Source of the DNA: a virus
Length of the DNA: 38,522 nucleotides
Direction: 5' to 3' (one strand)
Virus record (IMG/VR): IMGVR_UViG_3300007542_000063
Coordinates: 1-38,522 of that record
The stretch's first letter is position 1; every line of letters begins with the position of its first letter. This document shows positions 707-30,683 of this stretch, piece after piece. The translations under genes were made by a program, and so were the position numbers. The notes beneath the pieces are model-generated. The model was not told the origin of the DNA, made no database searches, and saw only the letters and a list, made by a program, of their open reading frames with translations.

Positions 707-1564
707 GTGGCTGACGCGCCCAACCACGTCCTATTCGGCGGCGCGGGTGCTGAGAGCGTCGGCGGGACTGCGGTCGCTGGGCTTTGGCCGAAGGATGCAG
801 TAACTTCCTCCCCAATTCCAATAACTGCCACCTCTGTTTCCTATACCATCGCAGCAAACGTAGCGGGGGTAAAGGCAGACACAACCTTTACTGCATCTTC
901 TACAGCCCTATCCCTAGCTAACAATAGTGCTACGGTTAAGGCTGACACTTCCTTCACAGCTACTAATAGTTCCCATACACTAGCATCTAACACTGCTACA
1001 GTAAAGGCTGATACATCTTTTACAGCTACTCCTGCCTCCTATACTATAACGGAGAATGCTGCTGACGTATCCATTGGTGTGGAGGTATCTGCTACATCCA
1101 CTGCCTTCACCATCACCACATATCAGGCGGATGTTTCAGCTCCCATAGGGATTGACGCTACTTCCACCGCCCTCACTATCACCCCCTATGCGGCTACGGT
1201 GAAGGCTGATGTGGAGTTCACTACCACTTCTGCCGCTTTAACTATTACTCCCAACGCTGGAGATGTTAAGGCCGACACTAGTTTCCCAGCTACGTCAACC
1301 CCCTTCACACTCACCACCTACCAAGCTACTATTCCAGGTAGTACAGATATTGATGCAACTTCTATCTCGTACACCCTTATAACTAATAGTGCTTCGATTA
1401 GCATAGGTGCTGCTAGTAGTGGTACAAATGTTTGGTCTGCTTGGAAACCGGGTAAGATAAGTAACGAAATGCTTCTTAAGCTTCACTATGAAGATGAGAG
1501 GCTCCTTAACTTCTTCTATGATAACATTGACACTATAGATGAAATGCTCCTTGGAATTAAGTGA
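707..1564 (+). CDS. Repeat-containing tail/fibre-like protein, 285 aa
   Basis: GTG start immediately after the preceding TAA. Residues 1-40 form a Gly/Ala-rich leader. Residues 41-238 are nine tandem 22-residue repeats of the type ATSTALTITPYAATVKADxx, with alternating Thr/Ser/Val/Ile typical of a beta-solenoid or stacked beta-strand stalk. The last 47 residues are a different, acidic helical segment (NEMLLKLHYEDERLLNFFYD). This architecture, and the place at the end of the late operon, suggest a tail-fibre or head-decoration stalk; the adhesin role is inference. Base composition becomes A+T-rich within the gene, from about 800, marking a junction with the preceding genes. Its 3' end overlaps the next start by 26 bases. 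Confidence 0.65.
   Translation: MADAPNHVLFGGAGAESVGGTAVAGLWPKDAVTSSPIPITATSVSYTIAANVAGVKADTTFTASSTALSLANNSATVKADTSFTATNSSHTLASNTATVKADTSFTATPASYTITENAADVSIGVEVSATSTAFTITTYQADVSAPIGIDATSTALTITPYAATVKADVEFTTTSAALTITPNAGDVKADTSFPATSTPFTLTTYQATIPGSTDIDATSISYTLITNSASISIGAASSGTNVWSAWKPGKISNEMLLKLHYEDERLLNFFYDNIDTIDEMLLGIK
827..1420 (+). repeat. Nine tandem 66-bp (22-codon) repeats
   Basis: The coding units begin at residues 41, 63, 85, 107, 129, 151, 173, 195 and 217 of the enclosing protein, each exactly 22 codons with no indels. Units 1-3, 6 and 7 carry a VKAD motif at the same offset; units 4, 5, 8 and 9 carry variants there (VSIG, VSAP, IPGS, ISIG). The nucleotide sequences have diverged more than the amino acid pattern, so the array is old and under selection. 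Confidence 0.85.
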
Positions 1565-2057
1565 AGTAGTAGATGGAAAGAAGTTGTTAGTTGTGGGGAA
1601 TGGAGATCGAGCAACCCATCTATCCCACCACTACTATGAAAATGTAGACCATATTGTTAAGTTCAATGAAGGTGTGAAAGTAGCACCTCATACTATTTGG
1701 GCTCCAACAGGGATATTTCCCAAGAAAAAGATAAAACCACTCGTAGATAAATACACCACCGAATCCACCTTCTATTTTAATTTTGAGGGCAGGTGGTTCC
1801 CCGACAAATGCCAACATATAGTGGCCCCACTCGATTGGGTGACAGCTGCTAAAGAAGATCTGCAATCAAAAATGCTGTTCTCTGGGACACTGTTCCTATG
1901 GTGTCTTCTCAATAGGTGTTCCTGTACAAGTATTGAGATAGTAGGTTTTGATTGCTATAGGAATAACACCCTCCCCAACCCCCACCAGAAGTGGAAAGCA
2001 AAAGATAGGGCATGGCTTCTTAAAGAGATAAGAAACCTCCACCTCACTCCTCTATGA
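1539..2057 (+). CDS. Sialyltransferase-like (GT29-like) glycosyltransferase
   Basis: 172 aa. The N-terminal part reads LLVVGNGDRATHL followed by DHIVKFNEG, which resembles the L-sialylmotif of GT29 enzymes (VVGN...H..VIRMN). The segment FSGTLFLWCLL, ending in EIVGFDCY, resembles the S-sialylmotif (sTG...a..LC..v.lyGF). A His-containing stretch (HQKWKAKDRAWLLKEI) follows where the VS motif would lie. The protein is shorter than cellular GT29 enzymes and has no membrane anchor. The expected role is sugar transfer onto a glycan or phage structural protein; donor and acceptor are unknown. It overlaps both neighbours and is followed by a second transferase and a methyltransferase, so the three look like one glycan-modification cassette. 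Confidence 0.5.
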   Translation: MKCSLELSEVVDGKKLLVVGNGDRATHLSHHYYENVDHIVKFNEGVKVAPHTIWAPTGIFPKKKIKPLVDKYTTESTFYFNFEGRWFPDKCQHIVAPLDWVTAAKEDLQSKMLFSGTLFLWCLLNRCSCTSIEIVGFDCYRNNTLPNPHQKWKAKDRAWLLKEIRNLHLTPL

Positions 2058-2848
2058 AAGTTTTCTTGTTCCCAACCACCAATATCATACTCACTGAAGA
2101 TGATAGCATGTATGCAATGGAGGCTGTTAAGCTTGGCTTATCTTCCCTTGGCATACAGGTGGTAGATAATATAGGCTTTGCAGATATTGGGATAGCATGG
2201 GGGTGGAAGCATCCTGATGTACTTAAATGCAAGAAGGATGTTCTTGTTTTAGAGAGGGGGTATATAGGAGATAGACATCAGTGGACTTCTGTTGGGTTTA
2301 ATGGCATCAACAGAATGGGAGATTTTATAAAGAGGGATATGCCAGGAGATAGATGGAATAGGCATTTTGGGGAGATGGCTGAGTGGGGTAATAAGGAGGA
2401 CGGTTACTTCCTAATAACAGGCCAAAATCTTAAGGATGCAAATACCAGTGGAATTAGGCTAAAGGAAGAGTATACCAAGTTATATAATATCTGCTCTAAA
2501 CAAAGGCCCACTCTCTTCCGCCCCCATCCTGGTAGAATGGGTGTTGGTGCCATCCCTGATAATGCAACCGTCACTCAGGGGGATTACATGGAGGAGCTGA
2601 AAGGTGCTTACTGTGTGGTTTCCTTCTCATCTAACAGCATGGTAGATGCTATACTAGCCGGAATACCCGTTGTAAGCCTCGATAAGCGTTCGATGGTATA
2701 TGACATTACAGGGCATACCATTGATGATATAAGACGCCCAGAGAGGCTCCAGTGGGCTTACAACATCATGTATAGGCAGTGGCTGTTGGAGGAGATAGTG
2801 GATGGGAGTATGTTAAGATTTGTGTTGGGAGAAAAGTATGGGAACTAG
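2054..2848 (+). CDS. GT-B-type glycosyltransferase, capsule-synthesis-like
   Basis: 264 aa, ATGA overlap with the preceding gene. The C-terminal half reads LFRPHPG (about residue 155), then GAYCVVSFSSNSMVDAIL and AGIPVVSLD. This is the donor-binding signature seen in capsule polysaccharide (KpsC/KpsS-like) and CDP-glycerol transferases (RPHP...SSt.vdAll.GiPVv). The N-terminal half is a plausible Rossmann domain opening with MKVFLFPTTN. It probably acts with the sialyltransferase-like protein before it and the methyltransferase after it. The exact sugar and acceptor cannot be read from the sequence; a host-surface or virion glycan are the two options. Confidence 0.5.
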   Translation: MKVFLFPTTNIILTEDDSMYAMEAVKLGLSSLGIQVVDNIGFADIGIAWGWKHPDVLKCKKDVLVLERGYIGDRHQWTSVGFNGINRMGDFIKRDMPGDRWNRHFGEMAEWGNKEDGYFLITGQNLKDANTSGIRLKEEYTKLYNICSKQRPTLFRPHPGRMGVGAIPDNATVTQGDYMEELKGAYCVVSFSSNSMVDAILAGIPVVSLDKRSMVYDITGHTIDDIRRPERLQWAYNIMYRQWLLEEIVDGSMLRFVLGEKYGN

Positions 2849-3356
2849 ACTGATAAACAAATATAAAAAACTACACAAACAAAAACCCTATGGCGTCTCA
2901 TCCCCGCAATATAAACCTGAATTAGAGCATATAATAGAAAAGTATAGTATCTCCTCTTGTCTTGATTTTGGATGCGGTCAATCCACTTTACTAGATGAAT
3001 TGAATGTCAATGAAAAGTATTGGTATGATCCAGCTATCATCGGTAAAGACTTCTTGATAGACAAGAGTGTTGATCTGATTATATGTACAGATGTATTAGA
3101 GCATATCCCCGAGAATGAAATAGAAAACACTCTAACACTCATTGGGGATAGGGGGAAGATGGTATATTTCCAAATCGCACTATTCCAGCACGGTGGAAGA
3201 TTTGATGACGGAAGTCCACTGCATATTACAGTGAAACCTAGAGAGTGGTGGAGGGAGCAGCTGAAGAAGCACTTCCATGTGCTACAAGACCTTCCTGTAT
3301 TTAAGAAGCCAAGACAGAAAAAAGAGTGGGCTGGGTGGCTTTGTTTTACATGTTAA
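2838..3356 (+). CDS. Class I SAM-dependent methyltransferase
   Basis: 172 aa from the ATG chosen here, which has a GGGAG ribosome site seven bases upstream; an earlier ATG 18 bases upstream is less well placed. Motif I is CLDFGCGQSTLLDEL (about residues 40-54), an acidic residue follows in YDPAIIG, and motif IV/post-I is VDLIICTDVLEHIPE. These are hallmarks of small Rossmann methyltransferases that often modify sugars or small molecules. The 11-base overlap with the GT-B-like gene suggests it methylates the same glycan. It is the last rightward gene; its stop overlaps the stop of the converging leftward operon by three bases. Confidence 0.75.
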   Translation: MGTRLINKYKKLHKQKPYGVSSPQYKPELEHIIEKYSISSCLDFGCGQSTLLDELNVNEKYWYDPAIIGKDFLIDKSVDLIICTDVLEHIPENEIENTLTLIGDRGKMVYFQIALFQHGGRFDDGSPLHITVKPREWWREQLKKHFHVLQDLPVFKKPRQKKEWAGWLCFTC

Positions 3357-3740: not shown

Positions 3741-3937
3741 TAATGCACCTCCGATTTAACTCTTGATAGATGCAGGTGGTGGAAGACATCCCCAACAGGG
3801 GCTTCAACAGGAATATCTGTATCATCAGCCACCATCATACCAAATGCCCCCTCCATTTGTTCTATATTATCTGGTTTCTCTATCATGCCAAATGACTCTG
3901 TTCCATCAGACCATTGTAATAGTATTGGAACAATCAT
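3740..3937 (-). CDS. Hypothetical protein, 65 aa
   Basis: Overlaps the ribonucleotide reductase gene by four bases (ATGA), so it is probably co-translated with it. The sequence is acidic with a Met-rich middle (EQMEGAFGMMVADD). It has no recognised domain; it is too short and lacks the CxxC motif expected of a glutaredoxin partner for the reductase. Confidence 0.55.
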   Translation of the reverse strand: MIVPILLQWSDGTESFGMIEKPDNIEQMEGAFGMMVADDTDIPVEAPVGDVFHHLHLSRVKSEVH

Positions 3938-5847
3938 AAGATTTCACATGCTCCTCCGGTGCAAGATAGTTCCTGAACACCTACAGTGTTGTCAGTATTC
4001 TCAAACATACCTAATAGGCTCCAATCCACTTTAGTCGGCATTCTATTCACCCATTCTAAATAAGCATCTTCTTCAATTTCCTGATAGGGGGCTTGTTGGT
4101 AGGTGTGTTCTGAATAGGGAAGAAAGGATACCCCACTCACCTCATCAAAGTGTTCCCATACCCAGGCACCCACCGCCATCCATTCATCTTGCTTGACGTT
4201 GATAGTCACCGATGGTTTATGCTCGCACCAATGACGTTGATATAGGAGCCACAAGTCCAACTGTTGTAGTGCTGTTCTATCTTCCCTATTGATAGAGCCT
4301 TTGGGAGATTGAACCGGGAAAGTGAATACATATGTACTGTCTGGTTTCATCACATCATCTTCCACTGGGAACCCAGCATCAACCATATACTTAGCCAATG
4401 GATCTTTCTTGTCGGCCCTGACAGTACGTAGGTAGTATGGAGAGTGGCGAGTATGGATTCCAGAGGCACTGTCAACCAGTTGGGAAACTGTACCAGAAGG
4501 CTTCACACAGGTAATGGCTGCTGATGGATTAACTCCTATCTTCTCTGCCCACTCTCTATTCACTGCAATGGCATGACCCCTAAGCTCCTCCAAGATCCAA
4601 CCTAGCTCTTCCATGTTCCATGCTCCAGACATAATCTCATTGTCCATAATGCCAGTGAGAGAAACACCTAGCAGAGCCTCCTCCTTAGTGTTCTCTTCCC
4701 ATTTCTTGCTGAGATAGCGGAAGTTAGTTAGGGAGGATTGCAGTGTTCCCAATATTGTTGCCACCCTAATCTTCTCTTTCAGCGTCTCAACTGTATCTTC
4801 CCTCCTAACTACCACCTCACTGAGGTTACATACCTGCCTATCCCTTAGTATGATTTCAGAGCAGGGATTACATCCCCATTCCGTATAACCAGCCTCCTTC
4901 CTCCTTTCCGGTATGGTTTTTGATGCAGCCTCTCGATTGAATATACCCCTCTCACCGCTCTTACTCTCAACTAGGGAGAGCCATTCCCGCATGAACACTT
5001 CCATGTCAGGACGCTCTGTATATGCTACAGAATTATTGGAGAGGGCATACTCGGGATGTTCCACCCACCACTGCCCAGATTTAGCATGGCGCATCCTATC
5101 ATCGCTAAGGTTAGAAAGGCTAATAAGGGCTGAACGGCGTACACCACCCACCACCACAATCTCTGCAATCTTACATACCAGTCCATGTACCTCGATACTT
5201 GTAAGGCGACGACCCACTGCATTGCGGAAAAGATTAACGCTATAATTAAACAGATCATTGAGGGGTTCAGGTCCACTAGCCCTTCCTCCAAAAGTGTTTA
5301 GTGGTGCTCCAGCAGGGCGAATCTTAGACATATCCCACTTGGGGATTTTACCAGAATAGAGAAGAGAGATTAGTTCTCGGAAAGAAGAAGCCCACCCAAT
5401 CTTACTATCAGCCACCTTAATGACTGTATCAGATGGGTACATCTCTTCTGCCACTTCTGGGAGTTGCTGGACATACTGACGCTCACAAGAGAACCCCACC
5501 CCAGTTCCACAAAGGAGGATATACATTAGCTCATCAAAAGCCCTCTGCCTGTTGATAGCCAAGTAGGAGCAATTGAACCCCGCCATCTCATCACGCTCCA
5601 ATGCCTTTCCAGCAGTCATAAGGGTGCGCATGGAGGGCATCACTTCCAGATTGTATATAGACTGTCTAACTACATCTAGTTCTCCATTTAGTTGGGGGAA
5701 CCTCTCTCTCCAAAAGCCAACCAATCTATCTACTACTTCCCCCCAACTCTCCCTCCTCCCCTCTCCCGGAAGCCACCTGCTGTATCTAGACAGCTGTATA
5801 TACTGTGAATACTGTGGATTGCTCACTAATCCTTCAAAGTCACTCAT
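3934..5847 (-). CDS. nrdJ: Class II (adenosylcobalamin-dependent) ribonucleotide reductase
   Basis: 637 aa, in the size range of the short monomeric RTPR type. It reduces ribonucleotides to deoxyribonucleotides using a cobalamin-generated thiyl radical. Visible residues: the redox pair C93 (FNCSY) and C340 (RQVCNLSE), the radical Cys 329 with E331 in NPCSE, and the C-terminal shuttle pair C629 and C634 in SCTGGACEIL. The phosphate-binding PSGTVSQL is present. There is no N-terminal ATP cone. No small subunit or activase gene is nearby, consistent with class II. The start overlaps the phosphatase gene by eight bases. With ThyX upstream it supplies dNTPs for replication and depends on host cobalamin. 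Confidence 0.93.
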   Translation of the reverse strand: MSDFEGLVSNPQYSQYIQLSRYSRWLPGEGRRESWGEVVDRLVGFWRERFPQLNGELDVVRQSIYNLEVMPSMRTLMTAGKALERDEMAGFNCSYLAINRQRAFDELMYILLCGTGVGFSCERQYVQQLPEVAEEMYPSDTVIKVADSKIGWASSFRELISLLYSGKIPKWDMSKIRPAGAPLNTFGGRASGPEPLNDLFNYSVNLFRNAVGRRLTSIEVHGLVCKIAEIVVVGGVRRSALISLSNLSDDRMRHAKSGQWWVEHPEYALSNNSVAYTERPDMEVFMREWLSLVESKSGERGIFNREAASKTIPERRKEAGYTEWGCNPCSEIILRDRQVCNLSEVVVRREDTVETLKEKIRVATILGTLQSSLTNFRYLSKKWEENTKEEALLGVSLTGIMDNEIMSGAWNMEELGWILEELRGHAIAVNREWAEKIGVNPSAAITCVKPSGTVSQLVDSASGIHTRHSPYYLRTVRADKKDPLAKYMVDAGFPVEDDVMKPDSTYVFTFPVQSPKGSINREDRTALQQLDLWLLYQRHWCEHKPSVTINVKQDEWMAVGAWVWEHFDEVSGVSFLPYSEHTYQQAPYQEIEEDAYLEWVNRMPTKVDWSLLGMFENTDNTVGVQELSCTGGACEIL

Positions 5848-9456: not shown

Positions 9457-9592
9457 GTGGCAACTTAATCCTCTTTATGTAGTAGTCAATCTCTAACGAT
9501 GGTCTGATGTATGCTAGTGTAATAATAGATACTAAACCATCAAATACTGATAGCCAAGATGCTATCCAATGATGAAACTGAGTATACCTCAT
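9449..9592 (-). CDS. 47-aa protein with one hydrophobic segment
   Basis: MRYTQFHHWIASWLSVFDGL followed by VSIITLAYIRPSLEIDYYIK: one amphipathic or transmembrane stretch (about residues 9-30) with a basic tail. The start overlaps the thyX stop by four bases (ATGA). Unrecognised; the coupling to thyX supports translation. Confidence 0.5.
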   Translation of the reverse strand: MRYTQFHHWIASWLSVFDGLVSIITLAYIRPSLEIDYYIKRIKLPHD

Positions 9593-10470
9593 AGCATTTG
9601 CCTATACTGTATCCATCCCTGGAAATTACCAGACCAGAACAATCCATTCCTATCAAAGTGAGTCACTCCGTCTTGATTAAGGTAGTGGTGAACTCCACCT
9701 AGCTTTACTATTTTTCCATTTCCTTCCATTGGAGTGCCTTGATGTTCGAAGGGGGACATATGTCCAGCCTCTAGGAGTCTGTCTGCCAGCTCTATGTCCT
9801 TCTCAAGGGATGGGGCTGACTTATCGTGATTAAGATAGGAGACACGGGCACAGCGAGCAACAGAAGCCTTCTGAAGCTCCTCTAGTGTAGTACCACTTTC
9901 CAAGCTAGCAATCTCATCCATGCTAACAAAAGGCAGGTGCCATTCTCCTGGATGTATTTCTAATGGAGAGCTTCTACTAACAGCAATCTTCATTGTCTTC
10001 GCCAGCCTTTGTATTTCAGGCTGTGCATCCTCATGGTCTCTGAGGGTGTAGAAGTTATCCCATTCAGTAGCAGTCACTACAACACTGATGTGAGAATATG
10101 GTTCCAACACTCTATTGGCTGTCTGTTTATGCACTTCTAGGCTGTTTAATTGAGAGGCTATATAGACGGCCCCCTCCATACCCTGTTTCCAAATCTCCTC
10201 TGCTACCGGCTTATCTGCTGGAGAGAGTTCACCAAGCGCCTGCATCCCCGCCGTGTTCTTCCCCCAATAAGATGGTATTGCCCAATCTCGTTTAAGAGCT
10301 GATAACATCTTCATCAGGGGTATCGCACGAGAGCTACTAGCATTCCTACTGAACATCCTATGAGTCATGAACTCGGAATGAATGAACCGTGGATATTGCA
10401 GTTGCAGCGTTATCAATTCCTTTCCGGCAGGGGAGACACTATGGGCTACTACCTTAGCGGAAATTGTCAT
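9589..10470 (-). CDS. thyX: Flavin-dependent thymidylate synthase ThyX
   Basis: 293 aa. Converts dUMP to dTMP using methylene-tetrahydrofolate and FAD. The ThyX motif region is THRMFSRNASSSRAIP (about residues 36-51), matching the HR..SRN..S.R core, preceded by a typical ThyX N-terminus (LQLQYPRFIHSEF). MSPFEHQGTP and a Trp/Gln-rich end (WIQYRQML) match the rest of the fold. It is longer than the common 210-250 aa enzymes, through extra helices between residues 60 and 110, as in several phage ThyX proteins. With class II RNR it forms the dNTP supply, and with the uracil-DNA glycosylase it keeps uracil out of phage DNA. Confidence 0.93.
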   Translation of the reverse strand: MTISAKVVAHSVSPAGKELITLQLQYPRFIHSEFMTHRMFSRNASSSRAIPLMKMLSALKRDWAIPSYWGKNTAGMQALGELSPADKPVAEEIWKQGMEGAVYIASQLNSLEVHKQTANRVLEPYSHISVVVTATEWDNFYTLRDHEDAQPEIQRLAKTMKIAVSRSSPLEIHPGEWHLPFVSMDEIASLESGTTLEELQKASVARCARVSYLNHDKSAPSLEKDIELADRLLEAGHMSPFEHQGTPMEGNGKIVKLGGVHHYLNQDGVTHFDRNGLFWSGNFQGWIQYRQML

Positions 10471-19170: not shown

Positions 19171-19800
19171 CTACCAATTGATGATACCTTTGCCCCTTAG
19201 CATCAGCTGGTTATTGATTTCGGAGAAAGGACGGCTTCCGAACCACCCCCTACTAGCAGAAAGCGGGGAGGGGTGGACAGTGGAGACGACATAGTTACCT
19301 CCCTCTAACAGCTTCTCTTTTTCTTTTGCTACATTTCCCATAAGGAGGAACACAATGTCGGGGTTGAAAAGAGAGAGGGAACGTAAGAGCCCATCTGTCG
19401 CCTCTCTCCACAATTCTGTATGTGAACCAGGAACACCAGCTAGACAAGTGAGGGAGGAGTTGATGAGGAAGACTCCCTGTTCCACCCATCTTTCTAAATC
19501 CCCACTATACTCTCTCTCCTCATAGTAGTAGATGTCCTCATCCAGTTCCTTGAAGATATTACGGAGAGAAGGGGGGAGTTTGTTAGAGGGGCTACTGAAA
19601 GCTATACCATCTGCTACAGCAGGATTAGGATAGGGGTCTTGTCCTACTACTACCACCTTAATGTCAGCAGGCTTAAGCATCCCGAAGACCCGGAATATTT
19701 TATCATGTGTTGGAGAGATTGTCAACCCCTCTATCTGTTTCAATATAGGGGAACATTGTTCCTCCGTAATGAAGTCTTCCCAACCCTCTAACTCTTTCAC
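19171..19800 (-). CDS. ung: Uracil-DNA glycosylase, family 1
   Basis: 209 aa, typical UNG length. Water-activating motif VVVGQDPYPNPAVADGIAFS (D55 catalytic; the usual GQDPYH has Pro instead of His). The uracil-binding VFLINSSLT and the DNA-intercalation loop HPSPLSASRGWFGSRPFSEI are also present. It removes uracil from DNA. The gene sits exactly between the proofreading-exonuclease and polymerase genes and starts on the exonuclease stop (ATGA). A phage-encoded UNG implies that this phage uses thymine DNA and removes dU, in line with ThyX. Confidence 0.93.
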   Translation of the reverse strand: MKELEGWEDFITEEQCSPILKQIEGLTISPTHDKIFRVFGMLKPADIKVVVVGQDPYPNPAVADGIAFSSPSNKLPPSLRNIFKELDEDIYYYEEREYSGDLERWVEQGVFLINSSLTCLAGVPGSHTELWREATDGLLRSLSLFNPDIVFLLMGNVAKEKEKLLEGGNYVVSTVHPSPLSASRGWFGSRPFSEINNQLMLRGKGIINW

Positions 19801-20258
19801 TTCTTACACTCCTCAATGCACTTTGAATATAGCCTCTCTGTTATGAGGACATCCTGTTCACATCTGTGCAGCATATTAGGCTCCCATACATCCCATTGCT
19901 CTTGCTCGGGCTTCTTCACTCCAAACCGCATTCCCCAAGCCTCTATTGAGTGGGGCTTTGCTTTCCCCTTCCACCCATTAGGCACCTTTAGCTGAGGCCA
20001 AAGCATCTTGGAGAGGATGAGGGTGTCTATGACCATGTGTATTGGGATGGAGATGTCTGCCACTTTCTTCAACAGCCACCTATCATATTGGATGCCATTG
20101 TGCATCACTAGTGTTGAGTTAGGTGGAATTGAGATGCCATCCCCATAATTGAAACGAATGATGGTGTCGGTTCCATATTCCTTTAAAACACCGCACCATA
20201 TCCTATCCGCATCCGGGCGTAATCCATTAGCCTCAAAGTCAGCTATAAATATTGTCAT
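19797..20258 (-). CDS. 3'-5' proofreading exonuclease, stand-alone T7-polymerase-type domain
   Basis: 153 aa. Exo I FIADFEANGL (D7, E9), Exo II VMHNGIQYDRWLL, then IDTLILSKMLWPQL and SIEAWGMRFG as in T7 gp5, and Exo III HRCEQDVLITERL with the third Asp. The protein ends where T7 gp5 passes from its exonuclease into its polymerase domain. It very probably partners with the separate polymerase protein at 17714-19069. Overlaps the acidic mini-protein gene by 20 bases and ung by four. Confidence 0.88.
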   Translation of the reverse strand: MTIFIADFEANGLRPDADRIWCGVLKEYGTDTIIRFNYGDGISIPPNSTLVMHNGIQYDRWLLKKVADISIPIHMVIDTLILSKMLWPQLKVPNGWKGKAKPHSIEAWGMRFGVKKPEQEQWDVWEPNMLHRCEQDVLITERLYSKCIEECKK

Positions 20259-20382
20259 CTTCTGGGTCTACATCTTCGTAGTCATCCCACAGATTTTCAT
20301 CCTGACGATAATAATCAAGGAAAGAACACTCTTCTTCCTTATTAAAATCTAATTCGGAAAATTCGTCTTCAATATTAAACAT
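20239..20382 (-). CDS. Extremely acidic 47-aa mini-protein
   Basis: MFNIEDEFSELDFNKEEECS begins the protein and DDYEDVDPEDDNIYS ends it. Nineteen of 47 residues are Asp/Glu against two Lys/Arg. The ATG overlaps the stop of the 343-aa protein, so it depends on coupling (no good ribosome site). It is the last gene of the amidoligase cluster and overlaps the exonuclease start. Options: DNA-mimic inhibitor (Ocr/Gam-like idea), peptide substrate for the ligases, or a replication accessory. Confidence 0.55.
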   Translation of the reverse strand: MFNIEDEFSELDFNKEEECSFLDYYRQDENLWDDYEDVDPEDDNIYS

Positions 20383-21406
20383 TAGAGGTTGGCCCTATGT
20401 AATTTAGATAATAGATGTTACCTTCTTGTACTTCTTCGTACAACTCTGGGTTGCTCCAATCAGCGAACCTCTCTAACTCACCGTCTCTAACCAGCATAAT
20501 TTTTCCATACAGACAACGCCACCTACTTTCACTATGCTTAGTAAAAACCCGATAGTCTTCTATATTCATCACCCGGAAACGACCTTGTAAGGTGTGGTTG
20601 CAGATGTATTCCCCCGGAAAGAATCTTGTCCAAGAGTCATCAATAAAAAATATCTTACAGCCTTTCGTTAGAAAAGCCCTGATATTTTCTGCAAACTTAT
20701 TCTTGGGGCTTGTGAATACACCCTCACCAAAGGACGCAACAATACCAGAATTATGATGCACAGCATCGCTATCATAGATGTCAACACCAGCTGGATTGTC
20801 CACTCCATCTGTAATAAGAGATGCATTGTTAACCATCCAACTTACTGTTACATGCTTAGTGATGTCGTTCCATGCATCTCTATCTTGTCCATAAATGTTC
20901 TCTTCTACAAAGTCCTGAAGTGTAGATCCAGTTCCATTATAGGAAAGAAGACGCAAGAGAAGGGTGAGAAGGCTTATGTATATTGTGTATGATTGCCAGA
21001 AGGCATCGGCTTCTACAATTATACCACCTTCTATATCCCCCACAATCCTTACATCTGTGTCGTTACAGATGTTCACCTCCTCTTCTAAGAGATATAGGTG
21101 AGCTTTTATATTCTCAATCTGGCTTTTTGGGCCAGTGAGCATAAGCCTTGTAGCATCTTTATCAAGGGGGTAATTTGCTACATCATAGGAGAAACCATGC
21201 TTCTTTTCTGGGAAAGGAAGTACACTATTTGGCTTATAGTTTTCCACTAAGACCTCATTGAAGAAGTCTTTACAGAGAACTGAGGAGTGCAGTTGCACAT
21301 AGCTATCGTCCCCTTCCTTGGAGACAAAAGCCATTCGAATTGCTTGAACCTGGCCGATCTCAATAAGGTTAAGGCTGCCATCTGTGTACTTAGTAAGCTG
21401 CAACAT
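20375..21406 (-). CDS. Unknown protein of the amidoligase cluster, 343 aa
   Basis: No family recognised. N-terminal third is mixed alpha/beta (TRLMLTGPKSQIENIKAHLY); a hydrophobic patch (SYTIYISLLTLLLRLLSYNG, about residues 138-157) may be a buried helix or membrane contact. The C-terminal third has aromatic strands and conserved-looking motifs (FFIDDSWTRFFPGEYICNHT). Overlaps the ATP-grasp gene by 17 bases. It is a candidate novel enzyme or the target of the ligases. Confidence 0.6.
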   Translation of the reverse strand: MLQLTKYTDGSLNLIEIGQVQAIRMAFVSKEGDDSYVQLHSSVLCKDFFNEVLVENYKPNSVLPFPEKKHGFSYDVANYPLDKDATRLMLTGPKSQIENIKAHLYLLEEEVNICNDTDVRIVGDIEGGIIVEADAFWQSYTIYISLLTLLLRLLSYNGTGSTLQDFVEENIYGQDRDAWNDITKHVTVSWMVNNASLITDGVDNPAGVDIYDSDAVHHNSGIVASFGEGVFTSPKNKFAENIRAFLTKGCKIFFIDDSWTRFFPGEYICNHTLQGRFRVMNIEDYRVFTKHSESRWRCLYGKIMLVRDGELERFADWSNPELYEEVQEGNIYYLNYIGPTSNV

Positions 21407-22187
21407 AATCTTTCACCTCTTGCAAATACTTCTCAAGTGTGGTACCATATAGTCCTGGTGCAGTATTGATTTCCAATATGTACCAAGCATCATAATGCTG
21501 ATTATATATAACATCTACTGCACCGAATGTCAACCCAAGGAGAGCAACGCTATCAACACACCAGCCCTTAACGTGATCAGGGACATCGACTCCTTCACGG
21601 CAATACACCCAACCCGTGCTATGGTTCCTCACTTGATAGTCAGCTTTCTCTGCTGCTATTCGCTTCTTCTTTTGTGCAACATCTATCACCTTATCACCAA
21701 ATACATGCACCCTATATTCATCCTTCTTCTTGATGTATTTGGTATAGAGGGGGGCTATCGGAAACTCTTCTCCTTCAACTCCATATTCCACACCCCCATA
21801 GATGAGCTTTATGCCATCCCCCGTGTGTCCTTTCAGTTTCGTCCTAGCTAACCATTCCAACTTGTAGTCAGCTCCAAGAGAATCTAAAACATCTTGGGGG
21901 TTAGTGGTGTACTCTGGCATTGGAACATCTTCTGATATGATTTGATAGGTATTGAGTTTATTTGCTGCCATATCTACTGACAGGGGATCATTCAACCATA
22001 ACTCAACCTTATTTTCATCATACCACAGTGGTGTAGTAGTGCATCCCCAATTTAAGATGAGGTGATTGGAGAAATGCTTGTATTTTCCATCAGGCTTAAC
22101 TCTCTTTGTGTTGAGCCTTTCAGCTAACGCCTTAGCACTACTACTGTACAGTTTGTACGGGTACAGGATAATTTTCTTCTTCACCAT
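21390..22187 (-). CDS. ATP-grasp ligase
   Basis: 265 aa if the third of three consecutive ATGs is used; AGGAG lies directly against the first, so the third has the best spacing. Visible ATP-grasp elements: a Gly-containing loop RTKLKGHTGDGI (115-126), EYRVHVFGDKVIDVAQ (157-172), and the metal-binding pair in GAVDVIYN (222-229) and LEINTAPGL (238-246). Family chemistry is ATP-dependent joining of a carboxylate to an amine via an acyl-phosphate. Overlaps the class II amidotransferase gene by 47 bases and works presumably in the same pathway. Confidence 0.85.
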   Translation of the reverse strand: MVKKKIILYPYKLYSSSAKALAERLNTKRVKPDGKYKHFSNHLILNWGCTTTPLWYDENKVELWLNDPLSVDMAANKLNTYQIISEDVPMPEYTTNPQDVLDSLGADYKLEWLARTKLKGHTGDGIKLIYGGVEYGVEGEEFPIAPLYTKYIKKKDEYRVHVFGDKVIDVAQKKKRIAAEKADYQVRNHSTGWVYCREGVDVPDHVKGWCVDSVALLGLTFGAVDVIYNQHYDAWYILEINTAPGLYGTTLEKYLQEVKDYVAAY

Positions 22188-23403
22188 CATCATCTCCTAA
22201 ACGGTCATGACAGTCTTTACAAATAGGCTCACTGCCCAGATCACTATACAACCAATGGACAACATCCCCATCAAAAAAGGAAGAAGAGCATATACAACAC
22301 CCGTCCTTGGTGAGATCAAGCCACTTCTTTTTTGTAACCTCACCAGACGGCCCCATATACTTCTTCTGTTTGGTGACACTCCTCACAAACACCTGTCGTT
22401 CTATATCATCGACATATTGTATGCCCTGCACAATACCTTCAAGTGTATCGCCAAGGGAGACATTAAAGCCCTTATCTACCCCGTGTGCTACGACAGTGGT
22501 GGCGCTTTCAGTCGCTCCATAGAGAGACTTTTTTCCTTTATTCTTCCCTTCTTCTACCCGAATGACATCAAACTTGACACTATCGCCAGTTAGAATGACA
22601 TCATCTTTATCCCACTTCTCGCTCTTAGTGTAGGAATTACTCCACTTACCCCGAGACCAGTTGTACCCATATGATGGTTTCTTCTCCATCATATTGTACT
22701 TAATGGAGGTGAAGTCTTTAGGATCTTCAGGCTTAAACTCATGGATATAGCCGGATGAGAGGTCATAAGTCTCTTCAACTGTAAGCTTATTCCTCTCTAT
22801 CACCCACTCCAACATCTTATCTTCACTACCAAAGATAACCAAATCCAGCTTTTGTATGAAGACTACATACATAGGCCGGTCGTCGTTGCGGGCCATTCGT
22901 AGTATGCCATCTCTTTTATCCCACCATACTATCGAGTAGGCACCACCGATAGATTCTAACACTTTAGAAGCATCCTCAGAACTAAGGGCTTCGATAAGAT
23001 TCTCACTATCGACCCCGCTCTTTGAATGACCTAGTACAGATATGGAATCCAGTGTACCATTATGAACGCCAACAACATCCCCAAACTCAAATGGATGTGC
23101 ATTCTTGTCTATAACAGAACCCTTCGTGGCCCACCTGTTGTGGCCTATACAAACATCATAATTCCCCACTTCTGGTAGAATTCTCCTAGAGAAGACACTA
23201 GTGTTGAGGAAGTCTTGAGCTGGGATTGCTCTCTTATAGGAAAGCATTTCCTCCTTATTGATCACATTTGGTGAAGCCAATGCTATACCAGTGGAATCAA
23301 AACCACGGAGGGCATCTACATAAAGCAGCTGCTGTAATATAGCCTTAACCTCAGTGTTATACTGATATCCCTTATTCCGAATGTAGCCTACAATACCGCA
23401 CAT
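22141..23403 (-). CDS. Class II glutamine amidotransferase (Ntn) with C-terminal zinc site
   Basis: 420 aa. Cys2 in MCGIVGYIRN is the N-terminal nucleophile after Met removal. RGFDSTGIA (33-41), GHNRWATKG (87-95), NAHP (101-104) and VHNGTLDS (113-120) are the glutamine-binding motifs of GATase_6/7-type domains. No asparagine-synthase or PRPP domain follows; instead a beta-rich region ends in CCICSSSF...PICKDCHDRL, a zinc-binding module, and an acidic tail. It would release ammonia from glutamine for one of the ligases. Confidence 0.88.
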   Translation of the reverse strand: MCGIVGYIRNKGYQYNTEVKAILQQLLYVDALRGFDSTGIALASPNVINKEEMLSYKRAIPAQDFLNTSVFSRRILPEVGNYDVCIGHNRWATKGSVIDKNAHPFEFGDVVGVHNGTLDSISVLGHSKSGVDSENLIEALSSEDASKVLESIGGAYSIVWWDKRDGILRMARNDDRPMYVVFIQKLDLVIFGSEDKMLEWVIERNKLTVEETYDLSSGYIHEFKPEDPKDFTSIKYNMMEKKPSYGYNWSRGKWSNSYTKSEKWDKDDVILTGDSVKFDVIRVEEGKNKGKKSLYGATESATTVVAHGVDKGFNVSLGDTLEGIVQGIQYVDDIERQVFVRSVTKQKKYMGPSGEVTKKKWLDLTKDGCCICSSSFFDGDVVHWLYSDLGSEPICKDCHDRLGDDDGEEENYPVPVQTVQ

Positions 23404-23405
23404 TG

Positions 23406-24455
23406 TTAAAGACCCTCCTCAAGTTCATGTTCAGGCATCTCTTCATCTTCTTCCTCTCCCATATACTCCTCCTCCTCTCCATTAGTTTCCTCAATAAGCT
23501 CATCAATAGGACTATAATCTAAACCATTCTTCTTGGCATAGATCTTGATGAGCTTAAGTTCATCTGGAGTATTAAGATACCTATTATGGTTGAAGTAGGC
23601 AGAGCTTCTGTTAACGATGGTTGCAGAGAATAGGAAATCCTGAGCTATCCTCGCACCCTGTAGTAAATCTTCTATATAACCTGGGTAGGAGACATAGTCT
23701 GCCATCTCCCCAAAACAATCTTTCACCCATCGTTCAAAACCAATGGAAGATATATCTGATGGGAGATTGGTAGTGTCCATCACTTTGGAAGACTCTTTTA
23801 GCTGGATGAGAGTCTTCACCCAATTCTTGATACGAGTGGCATCTGCTGTGCCCTCATGGTGGCGGAGTTCAACTGTTCCAAACTTCTCCAGGGAGGATGA
23901 GTTGAAGGCTGAATATTTTGGGGTGTTTAGGTAGGCTTTTACAGCAAAGTTTCGTAGTATTCTTGTCTCGAACAGGGGGAGGAAATCCTCCCTATGTGTC
24001 GTCCCTATTGGGAGACAATAGATGTTATTATCCCTCTCTCCAGATACCTTGAACAATATCTTCTCTACACATATATACAATGTGAGGAAAGATATGAATT
24101 CCTTAAGGGTCATATAGTTCATGCTCAAATGAACATGGACACTGGTTCTTTCGCTGAGAGATGGCTCCCCATCCCACTCTTTAATAGCCTCTTCGAATAC
24201 ATCAAAGGCTACCTGCAAGTCCTTCCCATAGAATCCCTTCGAGGTTTTTATTTCCATCCCATTATCCCTTAATGATCCATCATCGGAAATCACCCAATAT
24301 TTGTTAAAGATTGGATTCCTTGGATGGAAACCCCTCATGTTTTCCAACTCAATCTCAACCCCAACTTTAGTCTTTGTTGGGAATTCTTCACAGACTGAGA
24401 GTGCATACTCCTCCCTCTCAATCTTTCCGTATATATCAGCCATATGATTAGACAA
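23406..24455 (-). CDS. Amidoligase_2-type COOH-NH2 ligase
   Basis: 349 aa. VGVEIELEN (31-39), WVISDDGSLRDNGMEIKT (54-71), TSVHVHLSMN (104-113) and ELRHHEGT (196-203) match the glutamine-synthetase-like amidoligase fold (acidic metal ligands, HxH, E-x-RxxEGT). The C-terminus is a long acidic tail (EETNGEEEEYMGEEEDEEMP). The start is a TTG with GGGAGG six bases upstream; an ATG four codons later is too far from it. Expected chemistry is ATP-dependent amide bond formation. Confidence 0.82.
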   Translation of the reverse strand: MSNHMADIYGKIEREEYALSVCEEFPTKTKVGVEIELENMRGFHPRNPIFNKYWVISDDGSLRDNGMEIKTSKGFYGKDLQVAFDVFEEAIKEWDGEPSLSERTSVHVHLSMNYMTLKEFISFLTLYICVEKILFKVSGERDNNIYCLPIGTTHREDFLPLFETRILRNFAVKAYLNTPKYSAFNSSSLEKFGTVELRHHEGTADATRIKNWVKTLIQLKESSKVMDTTNLPSDISSIGFERWVKDCFGEMADYVSYPGYIEDLLQGARIAQDFLFSATIVNRSSAYFNHNRYLNTPDELKLIKIYAKKNGLDYSPIDELIEETNGEEEEYMGEEEDEEMPEHELEEGL

Positions 24456-25086
24456 TTAACACCTCCCGACCGAATTCAGCTAGCTGCTCTTGCATAAACA
24501 TCATATCCTGTGTGAGGATAATCTGCCCCGCTCTGTTGATATGAGAGACAATATGCCTTCCCTTATGGATACAGATTCTATTTGGAGCAGCTTTAATCCC
24601 CAAATGCCACTCCCTGTCTATAGAAGCAGCAACTCTCAGATTGTTCTTCACCAACCATAGGGCTTTATCAAACCCGTAGTGGGTGTTATTGAACAATGAC
24701 TCAAGAAAGGAGTAGTTGTGAATGCCCCTATCCAATTGTGGCACCCCCAATATCTTCCTCTCTAGTAAGTATGGATCTATGGTGCAGATGCTATCAGCTT
24801 GCAGTGTGGTTCTCCACTGCTTTTGCCTCCTCCTCTCCACCCAAAGAACCAACCCAGTTTCGGTATTGATGGCCCCTAATTCGGGGTAGTCTAGGATGAG
24901 ACTCTCATCTCCAACATCCAATTCAATCTGTTTCTCTTCTCCATTCTCAAACAGATTGCACATAAATGTCATGTCATCAGTACAGTTTGTTATGAGGACC
25001 GGGAGAAGCTTCCCATCTTCTCTTTGATAGGCTACATATGTACCCCGATGCCTTATGTTGTAGTCATGCGGAGTTAGGTTGTACAT
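24448..25086 (-). CDS. Unknown protein of the amidoligase cluster, 212 aa
   Basis: No family recognised. N-terminal half is beta-rich (GTYVAYQREDGKLLPVLIT); the second half has HNYSFLESLFNNTHYGFDKA and a His/Arg-rich tract (GRHIVSHINRAGQIILTQDM). No nucleophile or metal motif stands out. It lies between the two COOH-NH2 ligase genes and overlaps both, so a partner or substrate role in the same pathway is likely. Confidence 0.6.
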   Translation of the reverse strand: MYNLTPHDYNIRHRGTYVAYQREDGKLLPVLITNCTDDMTFMCNLFENGEEKQIELDVGDESLILDYPELGAINTETGLVLWVERRRQKQWRTTLQADSICTIDPYLLERKILGVPQLDRGIHNYSFLESLFNNTHYGFDKALWLVKNNLRVAASIDREWHLGIKAAPNRICIHKGRHIVSHINRAGQIILTQDMMFMQEQLAEFGREVLIV

Positions 25087-25865
25087 GGCACCTCTATCCC
25101 CAACTTATTCATAATGGATGCTGCCCTGTCAAGTGAGTGAGTGTTGATGATGGTGGGAATATCCTCATCCCATTCCACTTCATGTCGCCTATCCATAGCC
25201 TCTTTTGTAGCCTTATACACCCATTCTGTCAGGGCCTTATTCCCCACCCAGAAGTTGGAGAGGCTACGATATTCAATCCCGTGAACACCGGGAAAATATT
25301 CTTTTGTACGGAAGCATCCAGCCTTCCCATAGAGGCTACGTCTACGCTGATCCTTGTCGAGAAAGAGGGAGGGGAGTCCTAAGAAAGCATCCATTGCCTT
25401 GACAGCCGGGACTACTTCTGCCAACTCATTGCCTCCTTCAAAGGAGACATGAATATGGCCGCCAGCAGTACGGAGGGGGGAGGATGAAATGTTCGGTTTT
25501 TCGTTAACCGCCAACACCCAAATATCGAAGTCTGGTTCACACCCCGCAATGAGGGCGCTCGGGTGGGACAATTCTTCTTCTTCATACTCAGCACTCCCTA
25601 GTGCCACATATGATAGGCCGTGTACAGCAAGATGATTGCTAACATCGTCCAATACGGAATGGACGGATTTGACAAATTCATTTTCTCCTCCTTCAACTAA
25701 ATCAACTGGAGAAGAATTGAACTCCACCAGCACGTTGTCTACCTGTATCCAACCATGTTCAGTTTTTGATGGGTTGGATTTAGTACCATCAATCAACCCA
25801 ATGACCGACCGAGGGATACCATTACCATCTACAGCAATCAACTCAACATCTGTGCCTATCTTCAC
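25074..25865 (-). CDS. phiEco32-like COOH-NH2 ligase, type 2
   Basis: 263 aa from a GTG start that has AGGAG seven bases upstream and forms GTGA with the preceding stop; a start nine codons upstream is less well supported. Motifs: GTDVELI (4-10), DNVLVEFN (43-50), CEPDFDIW (109-116), TAGGHIHVS (133-141), KDQRRRSLYG (171-180) and GIEYRSLSNFW (196-206). This matches the glutamine-synthetase-like ligase class named after phage phiEco32. Family prediction is ATP-dependent peptide/amide ligation; substrates are not known. Confidence 0.85.
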   Translation of the reverse strand: MKIGTDVELIAVDGNGIPRSVIGLIDGTKSNPSKTEHGWIQVDNVLVEFNSSPVDLVEGGENEFVKSVHSVLDDVSNHLAVHGLSYVALGSAEYEEEELSHPSALIAGCEPDFDIWVLAVNEKPNISSSPLRTAGGHIHVSFEGGNELAEVVPAVKAMDAFLGLPSLFLDKDQRRRSLYGKAGCFRTKEYFPGVHGIEYRSLSNFWVGNKALTEWVYKATKEAMDRRHEVEWDEDIPTIINTHSLDRAASIMNKLGIEVPCTT

Positions 25866-26521
25866 TTGATGTCTCCTAGCTTCTTCACCCATTCATGTAC
25901 AACTAACCACCCCAAATCACTCCTCTTCATCCATTCGGGATGCCATTGTACTCCCAAACTTTTAGTATCCTTCCAGTAGACAGCCTCCACCTCTCTACTT
26001 TCTGGAAGAACACTCACACCCATCTCTTTTTCATCTCCTCCAATATAGCGAGAAGATCTGTTTTTGGAGGAGAAAGCAAACACCTTAAAGCCCTCTCCAC
26101 CGGGAACCATCATCTGATGGTGGGATGATGTCACCTTAAAGTGTTTACCGTTCTGGATCTCAACACCATGGTTCTCCATTCCGTGGCCTGTTACGTCCTG
26201 TATCAGTTTGCCCCCATTCATTGCACACAGGAATTGAGCCCCCCTACAGATACCAAACATCGGGATGCCTGCATCTTTAGCCATATAAAAAACCCTGGCT
26301 TCCTTCTTATCCCTTTCAATGTTCACGCCGGAACAATGGCGGGATTGTGCCTCATTGTATAGGGCTGGTGCCAGATCCCCTCCACCGATAAAGTGGACTA
26401 AACTATACCCATCTACTTTTTCAGGTGTGAGTGTTTCGTGTACTTCAAATCCACACTCAGCGATAAATGTTGAATAACCTTGATATCGCTGATTGGTTAC
26501 TACCAATGCTTTCTTCTTCAC
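25862..26521 (-). CDS. Class I glutamine amidotransferase-like hydrolase (peptidase C26)
   Basis: 219 aa. GGGDLAPALY (46-55), nucleophile elbow GICRGAQ with C92, SSHHQM (132-137) and the catalytic dyad GVQWHPEW with H194 and E196. This is the gamma-glutamyl-GABA hydrolase (PuuD-like) branch, which cleaves gamma-glutamyl amides. In this cluster it could deprotect or recycle a gamma-glutamyl intermediate, or supply ammonia. ATGA overlap with the preceding gene and GTGA with the next. Confidence 0.88.
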   Translation of the reverse strand: MKKKALVVTNQRYQGYSTFIAECGFEVHETLTPEKVDGYSLVHFIGGGDLAPALYNEAQSRHCSGVNIERDKKEARVFYMAKDAGIPMFGICRGAQFLCAMNGGKLIQDVTGHGMENHGVEIQNGKHFKVTSSHHQMMVPGGEGFKVFAFSSKNRSSRYIGGDEKEMGVSVLPESREVEAVYWKDTKSLGVQWHPEWMKRSDLGWLVVHEWVKKLGDIK

Positions 26522-27126
26522 TTGTCAAGACCCTCTAGGTGCTTTACAGCATCATCAAATTTGTTTTCTTGGAGTTCATCGCTTTCCATTATACGGTAAA
26601 CGTATTCGTTGGGGACTTCTCCAACTGTATGGATTGTCTTAACGCCCCTCATCAGAGAGTCTCTGGAGACCCTAGAGATGCTATATGGGATGCATACATG
26701 CCCATGTCTGCTCATCAATATCGGTTTCTTTGTTTCCCTATTGAAGTAGTGAGCCAGCACAAAAGAGGTGTTAGGCCCAAACCCATCTACACTCTCAAAA
26801 GAAAGAATCCGATCAACAAGGGATGGTTGCTCCCATTTATACCTAATGGGAGAGAAATACCAAAGGGCCTTTTGAATACTCCAGCTATTGACATAGAAAG
26901 GAACTTCAAAAGTCCATCTTGGTTTAAGAACAAAAGACATCTCCGGGAATAGCGTAGTACACCGCTTCAAGAAAAGTCGATAGGGTGTGTTGGGTGTTCT
27001 GGCTTCACTTGATGCGGGGTATGCCGTAACACCACTCGGAACCGGAAAACCACGGAGGGGGGCTAAACATGCCTCGTTACAGAGTACTTTTCCGTTTGGA
27101 AAACGGATGTTAATATCATCATTCAT
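26518..27126 (-). CDS. Unknown protein of the amidoligase cluster, 202 aa
   Basis: First gene of the cluster in transcription order. N-terminal part FPNGKVLCNEACLAPLRGFP has two close Cys and Pro-rich turns. The middle is aromatic (FEVPFYVNSWSIQKALWYFS) and the C-terminal part has SRHGHVCIPYSISRVSR. No family recognised. Upstream 60 bases contain no gene and only a weak ribosome site. Confidence 0.6.
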   Translation of the reverse strand: MNDDINIRFPNGKVLCNEACLAPLRGFPVPSGVTAYPASSEARTPNTPYRLFLKRCTTLFPEMSFVLKPRWTFEVPFYVNSWSIQKALWYFSPIRYKWEQPSLVDRILSFESVDGFGPNTSFVLAHYFNRETKKPILMSRHGHVCIPYSISRVSRDSLMRGVKTIHTVGEVPNEYVYRIMESDELQENKFDDAVKHLEGLDK

Positions 27127-30654: not shown

Positions 30655-30683
30655 TTGACATTGCCCCCCTGTTATGGTATAAT
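30655..30683 (+). promoter_or_regulatory. Perfect-consensus sigma70 promoter
   Basis: TTGACA, 17-base spacer, TATAAT: no mismatch and ideal spacing. It drives rightward transcription toward the terminase genes about 350 bases downstream. The spacer end and -10 region ATGGTATAATATAGGG are repeated at a second promoter at 35323-35351. Confidence 0.88.

Follow-up and report, generated by a model that had tools for sequence, protein, structure and literature searches.

The nine tightly packed open reading frames (ORFs) described here raise the question whether a virus carries in them a new kind of amide- or peptide-ligase cluster or a variant of a known one, and what such a cluster could make. 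The window, by which we mean the whole 38.5-kb IMG/VR virus record that was analysed, has podovirus-like genes for terminase, portal, major head protein, a split exonuclease and polymerase, and primase-helicase. At positions 27126-20239 it carries, on the minus strand, nine ORFs whose ends overlap or abut, transcribed in the order P9, C26, LIG1, U212, LIG2, GAT2, GRASP, U343 and a 47-aa acidic ORF (Table 1). The overlaps amount to 4 bp (P9/C26), 31 bp (C26/LIG1), 13 bp (LIG1/U212), 8 bp (U212/LIG2), 17 bp (GRASP/U343) and 8 bp (U343/mini-ORF); GAT2 and GRASP overlap by 53 bp as called, the real GRASP start possibly lying a few codons further in, and a 2-bp gap separates LIG2 from GAT2. The ORF call thus agrees with an earlier note on this DNA, which had described these nine ORFs, nearly all with overlapping junctions, and five motif-supported enzymes among them, four of which are recognised by Pfam and the fifth, the ATP-grasp, through its PHROG family. 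That note had also read strong selection from the share of the window that the run occupies (about 18%), but this share (17.9%) says nothing on selection. No membrane segments were detected in the cassette by hydropathy, and eight proteins matched none of the families of the PADLOC anti-phage defence models, and the idea of a known defence system was dropped.

Table 1. Predicted genes of the nine-ORF run, in order of transcription
Gene	Description	Coordinates	Strand	Basis
P9	Orphan, 202 aa, first gene	26518..27126	-	ORF; homologue search negative
C26	Gamma-glutamyl-hydrolase-like class I glutaminase fold, 219 aa	25862..26521	-	Pfam Peptidase_C26 3.4e-22
LIG1	phiEco32-type COOH-NH2 ligase, 272 aa	25074..25892	-	PF14395 5.9e-9; phrog_3815 3.8e-65
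U212	Conserved core protein between both ligases, 212 aa	24448..25086	-	phrog_11055; AlphaFold model
LIG2	Amidoligase_2, 349 aa	23406..24455	-	PF12224 5.3e-8; phrog_7469
GAT2	Class II glutaminase (Cys2 at the N-terminus), 420 aa; C-terminal region zinc-ribbon-like, with four cysteines	22141..23403	-	GATase_6 1.4e-13
GRASP	RimK-like ATP-grasp ligase, 267 aa	21390..22193	-	phrog_2599 9.4e-65; Pfam weak (0.095)
U343	Family of the window's arrangement	20375..21406	-	Invariant Cys45, nearly invariant His217 (alignment)
Mini-ORF	Putative 47-aa acidic orphan ORF, net charge -17	20239..20382	-	ORF; computed charge

Elsewhere in the window, a uracil-DNA glycosylase gene (19171-19800, minus strand; UDG superfamily, 9.7e-18) is flanked by the genes for exonuclease and polymerase, and such a gene is also found near the cassette of the crAss-like phage cr108_1 (L010). 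A ThyX-like thymidylate synthase (9589-10470, minus strand) and a B12-type ribonucleotide reductase (3934-5847, minus strand) are encoded as well. The left end holds three overlapping plus-strand ORFs (1539-3356) that look like a small modification module, the third of them having a methyltransferase-like match (7.3e-6), and a perfect sigma-70 consensus promoter (30655-30683, plus strand; TTGACA-17-TATAAT, 12/12, extended -10) stands upstream of the rightward structural genes.

The run is almost certainly a divergent member of a phage cassette attributed to Iyer 2009 and Hardies 2013, who, as cited in PMC5498523, predicted it to modify peptidoglycan. By tblastn with LIG1, 313 phage records were obtained, all below 60% identity (42.2% for the first row), and the best LIG1 relative in the alignment is 44% identical. 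Scans of viral contigs with alignment queries yielded at least 580 places with LIG1 relatives, and 501 relatives, which the scan with LIG1 as a single sequence (zero relatives) had missed; together with the phage records these include laboratory coliphages and Pseudomonas phages. The four core enzymes were present in all 23 loci compared (22 phage loci fetched with their surroundings, and the window), so that the kinship to phiEco32-type clusters suggested earlier is borne out by both sequence relatives and gene neighbourhood. Their wide conservation is likewise seen in 158 of 183 loci, a set that includes fragmentary loci and contigs present twice. The window itself encodes a PF14395 ligase, a PF12224 ligase, an ATP-grasp enzyme and a glutamine amidotransferase; a gamma-glutamylcyclotransferase (GGCT) is absent from the 38.5-kb record, and C26 is there instead; as this record is possibly a fragment, the virus may carry a GGCT elsewhere. 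Related records lack GGCT in 60 of 100 cases too, so that its presence is no defining feature of the family.

Four arrangements were distinguished: A, PEC-C26-GAT2-LIG1-U212-LIG2-GRASP, in which PEC is our label for the family of a 466-aa protein of Erwinia phage Pecta (a Pfam search with this family gave no lead); B, the type of the window, C26-LIG1-U212-LIG2-GAT2-GRASP-U343; C, the LUZ24/Kuravirus type, LIG1-U212-LIG2-GAT2-GRASP-GGCT; and D, a crAss-like order without U212. The seven genes of the window from C26 to U343 recur with the same content and order in about 20 other viral loci, and the run is far beyond chance, because many viruses of only distant kinship repeat its content and order. 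The cassette is therefore an already described kind and not a new kind of cluster, and the novelty implied by the earlier note is not supported: descriptions of the cassette as a module predicted to modify peptidoglycan go back to 2009. New here are an alternation between C26 and GGCT, the assignment of U212 to the core, and the near-confinement of the cassette to viruses. Regarding the latter, 84,980 species genomes of bacteria and archaea were scanned by a pattern-based search, which returned just 15 contigs, all titled metagenome-assembled, of which 12 carry other cassette genes (six of these also a phage-type primase) and three a distant LIG1 relative alone; within reach of this search, hardly any cassette lies outside viruses.

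In 97 of the 132 loci with enough sequence, the cassette lies directly upstream of the primase-helicase gene, a position that would suit hypermodification of phage DNA bases by amide chemistry. We consider this quite improbable: none of the cassette proteins was recognised as a known base-modifying enzyme, and in Pseudoalteromonas phage HP1 the cassette is transcribed immediately, ahead of the takeover and DNA genes (PMC7082346). This timing favours an early host target and speaks somewhat against DNA modification, despite the adjoining replication genes. Another reading, in which the cassette serves auxiliary nitrogen metabolism by aiding ammonium assimilation of the host, was claimed for the cassette-bearing phage ZRK32, whose record is presented as that of a chronic phage of planctomycetes carrying genes for nitrogen metabolism (PMC10945688). 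It appears very improbable to us, as conserved, dedicated ligases and a deglutamylase point to a specific product. Moreover, the genome in the ZRK32 record is partial and unverified. Over most of the compared region, cassette included, Poriferisphaera phage ZRK32 (L003, OP650935.1) and Pseudomonas phage SCYZ1 (L002, MH518298.3) share 80-87% identity, and the host assignment or cassette reading of ZRK32 may for this reason deserve a second look.

The cassette enzymes look active, because their catalytic residues are conserved across homologues. Kept in at least 93% of the aligned homologues are C92, H194 and E196 in C26 (118 aligned homologues); E17, E57, H146, R184, E207 and R209 in LIG1, in which D15 and D52 are conserved too; E34, E36, H107, H109, E196 and R198 in LIG2; C2, R90, N115, G116 and D132 in GAT2, in which C369 and C372 are conserved too; and K79, R117, E159, R161, K175, D227, E241 and N243 in GRASP. 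Loss of catalytic residues among homologues, of which the earlier note had warned, was thus not seen at this threshold, which supports the amide/peptide-ligase chemistry it had claimed. No credible solved relative of LIG1 or LIG2 was found by sequence in the PDB. For C26, a sequence search of solved structures gave Lin1909, PuuD and a probable glutamine amidotransferase as closest relatives, and among named families its sequence places it closest to gamma-glutamyl hydrolases, namely gamma-glutamyl-CDP-amidate hydrolase (42.5 bits, NCBIfam cut-off 250) and PuuD (32.8 bits, cut-off 266), both scores lying below the cut-off. The C26 class also includes folate gamma-glutamyl hydrolase; a companion gene that would fit action on folate polyglutamate was not seen in the cassette. 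The nearest solved relatives of GAT2 are GlmS, PurF and AsnB; with the GlmS family it reached 51.1 bits against a cut-off of 418, residues 2-121 alone being matched. In the relatives that carry a GGCT, E96 of this enzyme is conserved and YtfP-like proteins are the nearest solved structures.

The closest solved relatives of GRASP are RimK-type ligases, with a weaker likeness to ATP-grasp peptide maturases, and its scores stay below the family cut-offs (26.0 bits against 143.4 for RimK TIGR00768; 40.2 against 350 for MptN). This resemblance could suggest that a host protein, for instance a ribosomal one, receives amino acids from GRASP and the ligases, with C26 or GGCT editing the tag, and early expression would be consistent with such a host takeover. 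Nevertheless, we hold protein tagging to be unlikely, given the distance of GRASP from the RimK cut-off, the fact that three ligases and a glutaminase are much for one tag, and the failure to find a precursor peptide conserved across all arrangements.

Of 100 whole records in which cassette genes occur, 58 have C26 alone, 22 GGCT alone, 18 both and two neither, where about 14 records with neither would be expected from the margins under independence; apart from the window, which may itself be incomplete, other viral records in this tally may be incomplete too. Both exceptions are weak, as one contig (L049) stops just upstream of the cassette and LIG1 was not found in the other locus (L177). 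In Vibrio phage 1.293.O (L020), GGCT occupies exactly the slot of C26, between PEC and GAT2. Fisher's test on the tally gave 2.6e-9 with kinship ignored. A quick FastTree tree of 97 records shows about five changes of C26 and 14 of GGCT; a Pagel-type dependent model fitted better (p 0.011), and independent-pair sign tests gave no significance because too few independent C26 changes are available. These patterns lend moderate support to gamma-glutamyl removal as a shared step that would be performed by two unrelated enzymes, C26 and GGCT, with the 18 records carrying both as a warning against strict equivalence. The earlier guess that one glutaminase releases NH3 and the other trims a gamma-glutamyl group hereby gains real support: GAT2 is nearest to ammonia donors of the GlmS/PurF/AsnB type, C26 is nearest to gamma-glutamyl hydrolases, and GGCT replaces C26 in many relatives.

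The three unknown proteins of the earlier note do exist, but they are not equal in standing: U212 belongs to the conserved core, U343 is specific to a subclass and P9 is an orphan. The U212 family occurs in 136 of the 161 loci that carry both ligases, with 53 of 56 aligned members matching phrog_11055, and U212 is a core cassette component. Its AlphaFold model (pLDDT 92.3) had a 51-residue Tudor/SH3-like barrel as sole match in a PDB fold search, a full-length match among the solved structures there not being found; in BFVD, 11 strong matches were obtained, the three named ones coming from CW02, Vp_R1 and an uncultured phage, of which CW02 and Vp_R1 are cassette phages of the present set. U212 may dock LIG1 and LIG2, whose genes flank its own. 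U343 has 36 members in the 183 loci, adjoining GRASP or GAT2 in most of them; Pfam and PDB fold searches were negative and PHROG gave one weak match in 30 members. Homologues of P9 were absent from the 183 loci, the PDB and the phage records. A further conserved protein of about 72 aa lies between GAT2 and GRASP in LUZ24/Kuravirus-type loci (L002, L004, L009, L013, L015-L018 and L023); the idea of a LysW-like carrier protein was rejected for it, as it lacks a cysteine ribbon and is confined to this one arrangement.

Taken together, we propose that the cassette would act in the cytoplasm, early in infection, where the ATP-dependent ligases LIG1, LIG2 and GRASP would couple an amino acid, glutamate or another, to a substrate taken from the host and GAT2 would supply amide ammonia from glutamine. 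A gamma-glutamyl group might be attached en route and removed later, by C26 in the virus of the window or by GGCT in its relatives. For this attach-and-remove step we see the case as evenly balanced: C26 resembles gamma-glutamyl hydrolases and GRASP resembles glutamate ligases, while about five independent C26 changes, the 18 records with both enzymes and the distance of C26 from the named-hydrolase cut-offs weigh against it. GAT2 could itself be an EgtC-like hydrolase, a match weaker than that to the ammonia donors. GGCT and PuuD-type enzymes have gamma-L-glutamyl amines as substrates and not obviously D-Glu-mDAP links, which makes a small molecule or precursor at least as likely a target as finished peptidoglycan. 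A cell-envelope precursor and a soluble metabolite seem to us equally plausible targets, neither reaching an even chance, followed by a protein as a less likely and DNA as the least likely one.

The substrate preference of these enzymes also bears on the published reading, according to which unusual peptidoglycan side-chain linkages made early in infection block superinfection, with GGCT and the glutamine amidotransferase as peptidoglycan-degrading partners. According to PMC5498523, PMC6256558 and PMC11945000, this reading goes back to Iyer 2009 and Hardies 2013. It fits the immediate expression in phage HP1 (PMC7082346), but a muropeptide or adsorption experiment was not found in the papers searched, and we regard it as possible though rather doubtful. 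Peptidoglycan may also be the target of the gamma-glutamyl chemistry, in which case both readings would not exclude each other. In the literature searched, where Iyer 2009 and Hardies 2013 are represented by citing papers, we found neither an experiment identifying the substrate of any cassette member nor a paper showing the cassette product. More speculatively, and with still greater doubt, the cassette could be a virus-specific pathway in which a gamma-glutamyl group serves as removable handle and a soluble amide metabolite, not peptidoglycan, is released in the infected cell, with C26 and GGCT as interchangeable unmaskers and U212 as a new docking fold for both ligases. The alternation of C26 and GGCT turns the vague label of amide metabolism into a concrete test, and U212, hitherto labelled as of unknown function, is drawn into the pathway.

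Compared with named systems, the cassette of the window shares with those of phages phiEco32, LUZ24, PaP3, tf, CW02, PA11, RIO-1 and PSA-HP1 the four core enzymes, the position of U212 between the ligases and a tight same-strand run beside replication genes. It differs from known cassettes by a LIG1 at most 44% identical, the addition of U343, the orphan P9, and C26 where LUZ24 and Kuravirus relatives have GGCT. With PuuD and gamma-glutamyl-CDP-amidate hydrolase, C26 shares the fold and the catalytic C92, H194 and E196, whereas its scores are far below their cut-offs; similarly, GRASP shares the ATP-grasp fold and catalytic residues with RimK-type glutamate ligases but falls below the family cut-offs. 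In butirosin biosynthesis, the ATP-grasp enzyme BtrJ takes part and the GGCT BtrG removes a gamma-glutamyl mask. Although a carrier protein and a decarboxylase were not recognised in the cassette, which has extra ligases and a glutaminase, both systems could possibly follow a common logic of ATP-grasp ligation and subsequent gamma-glutamyl removal.
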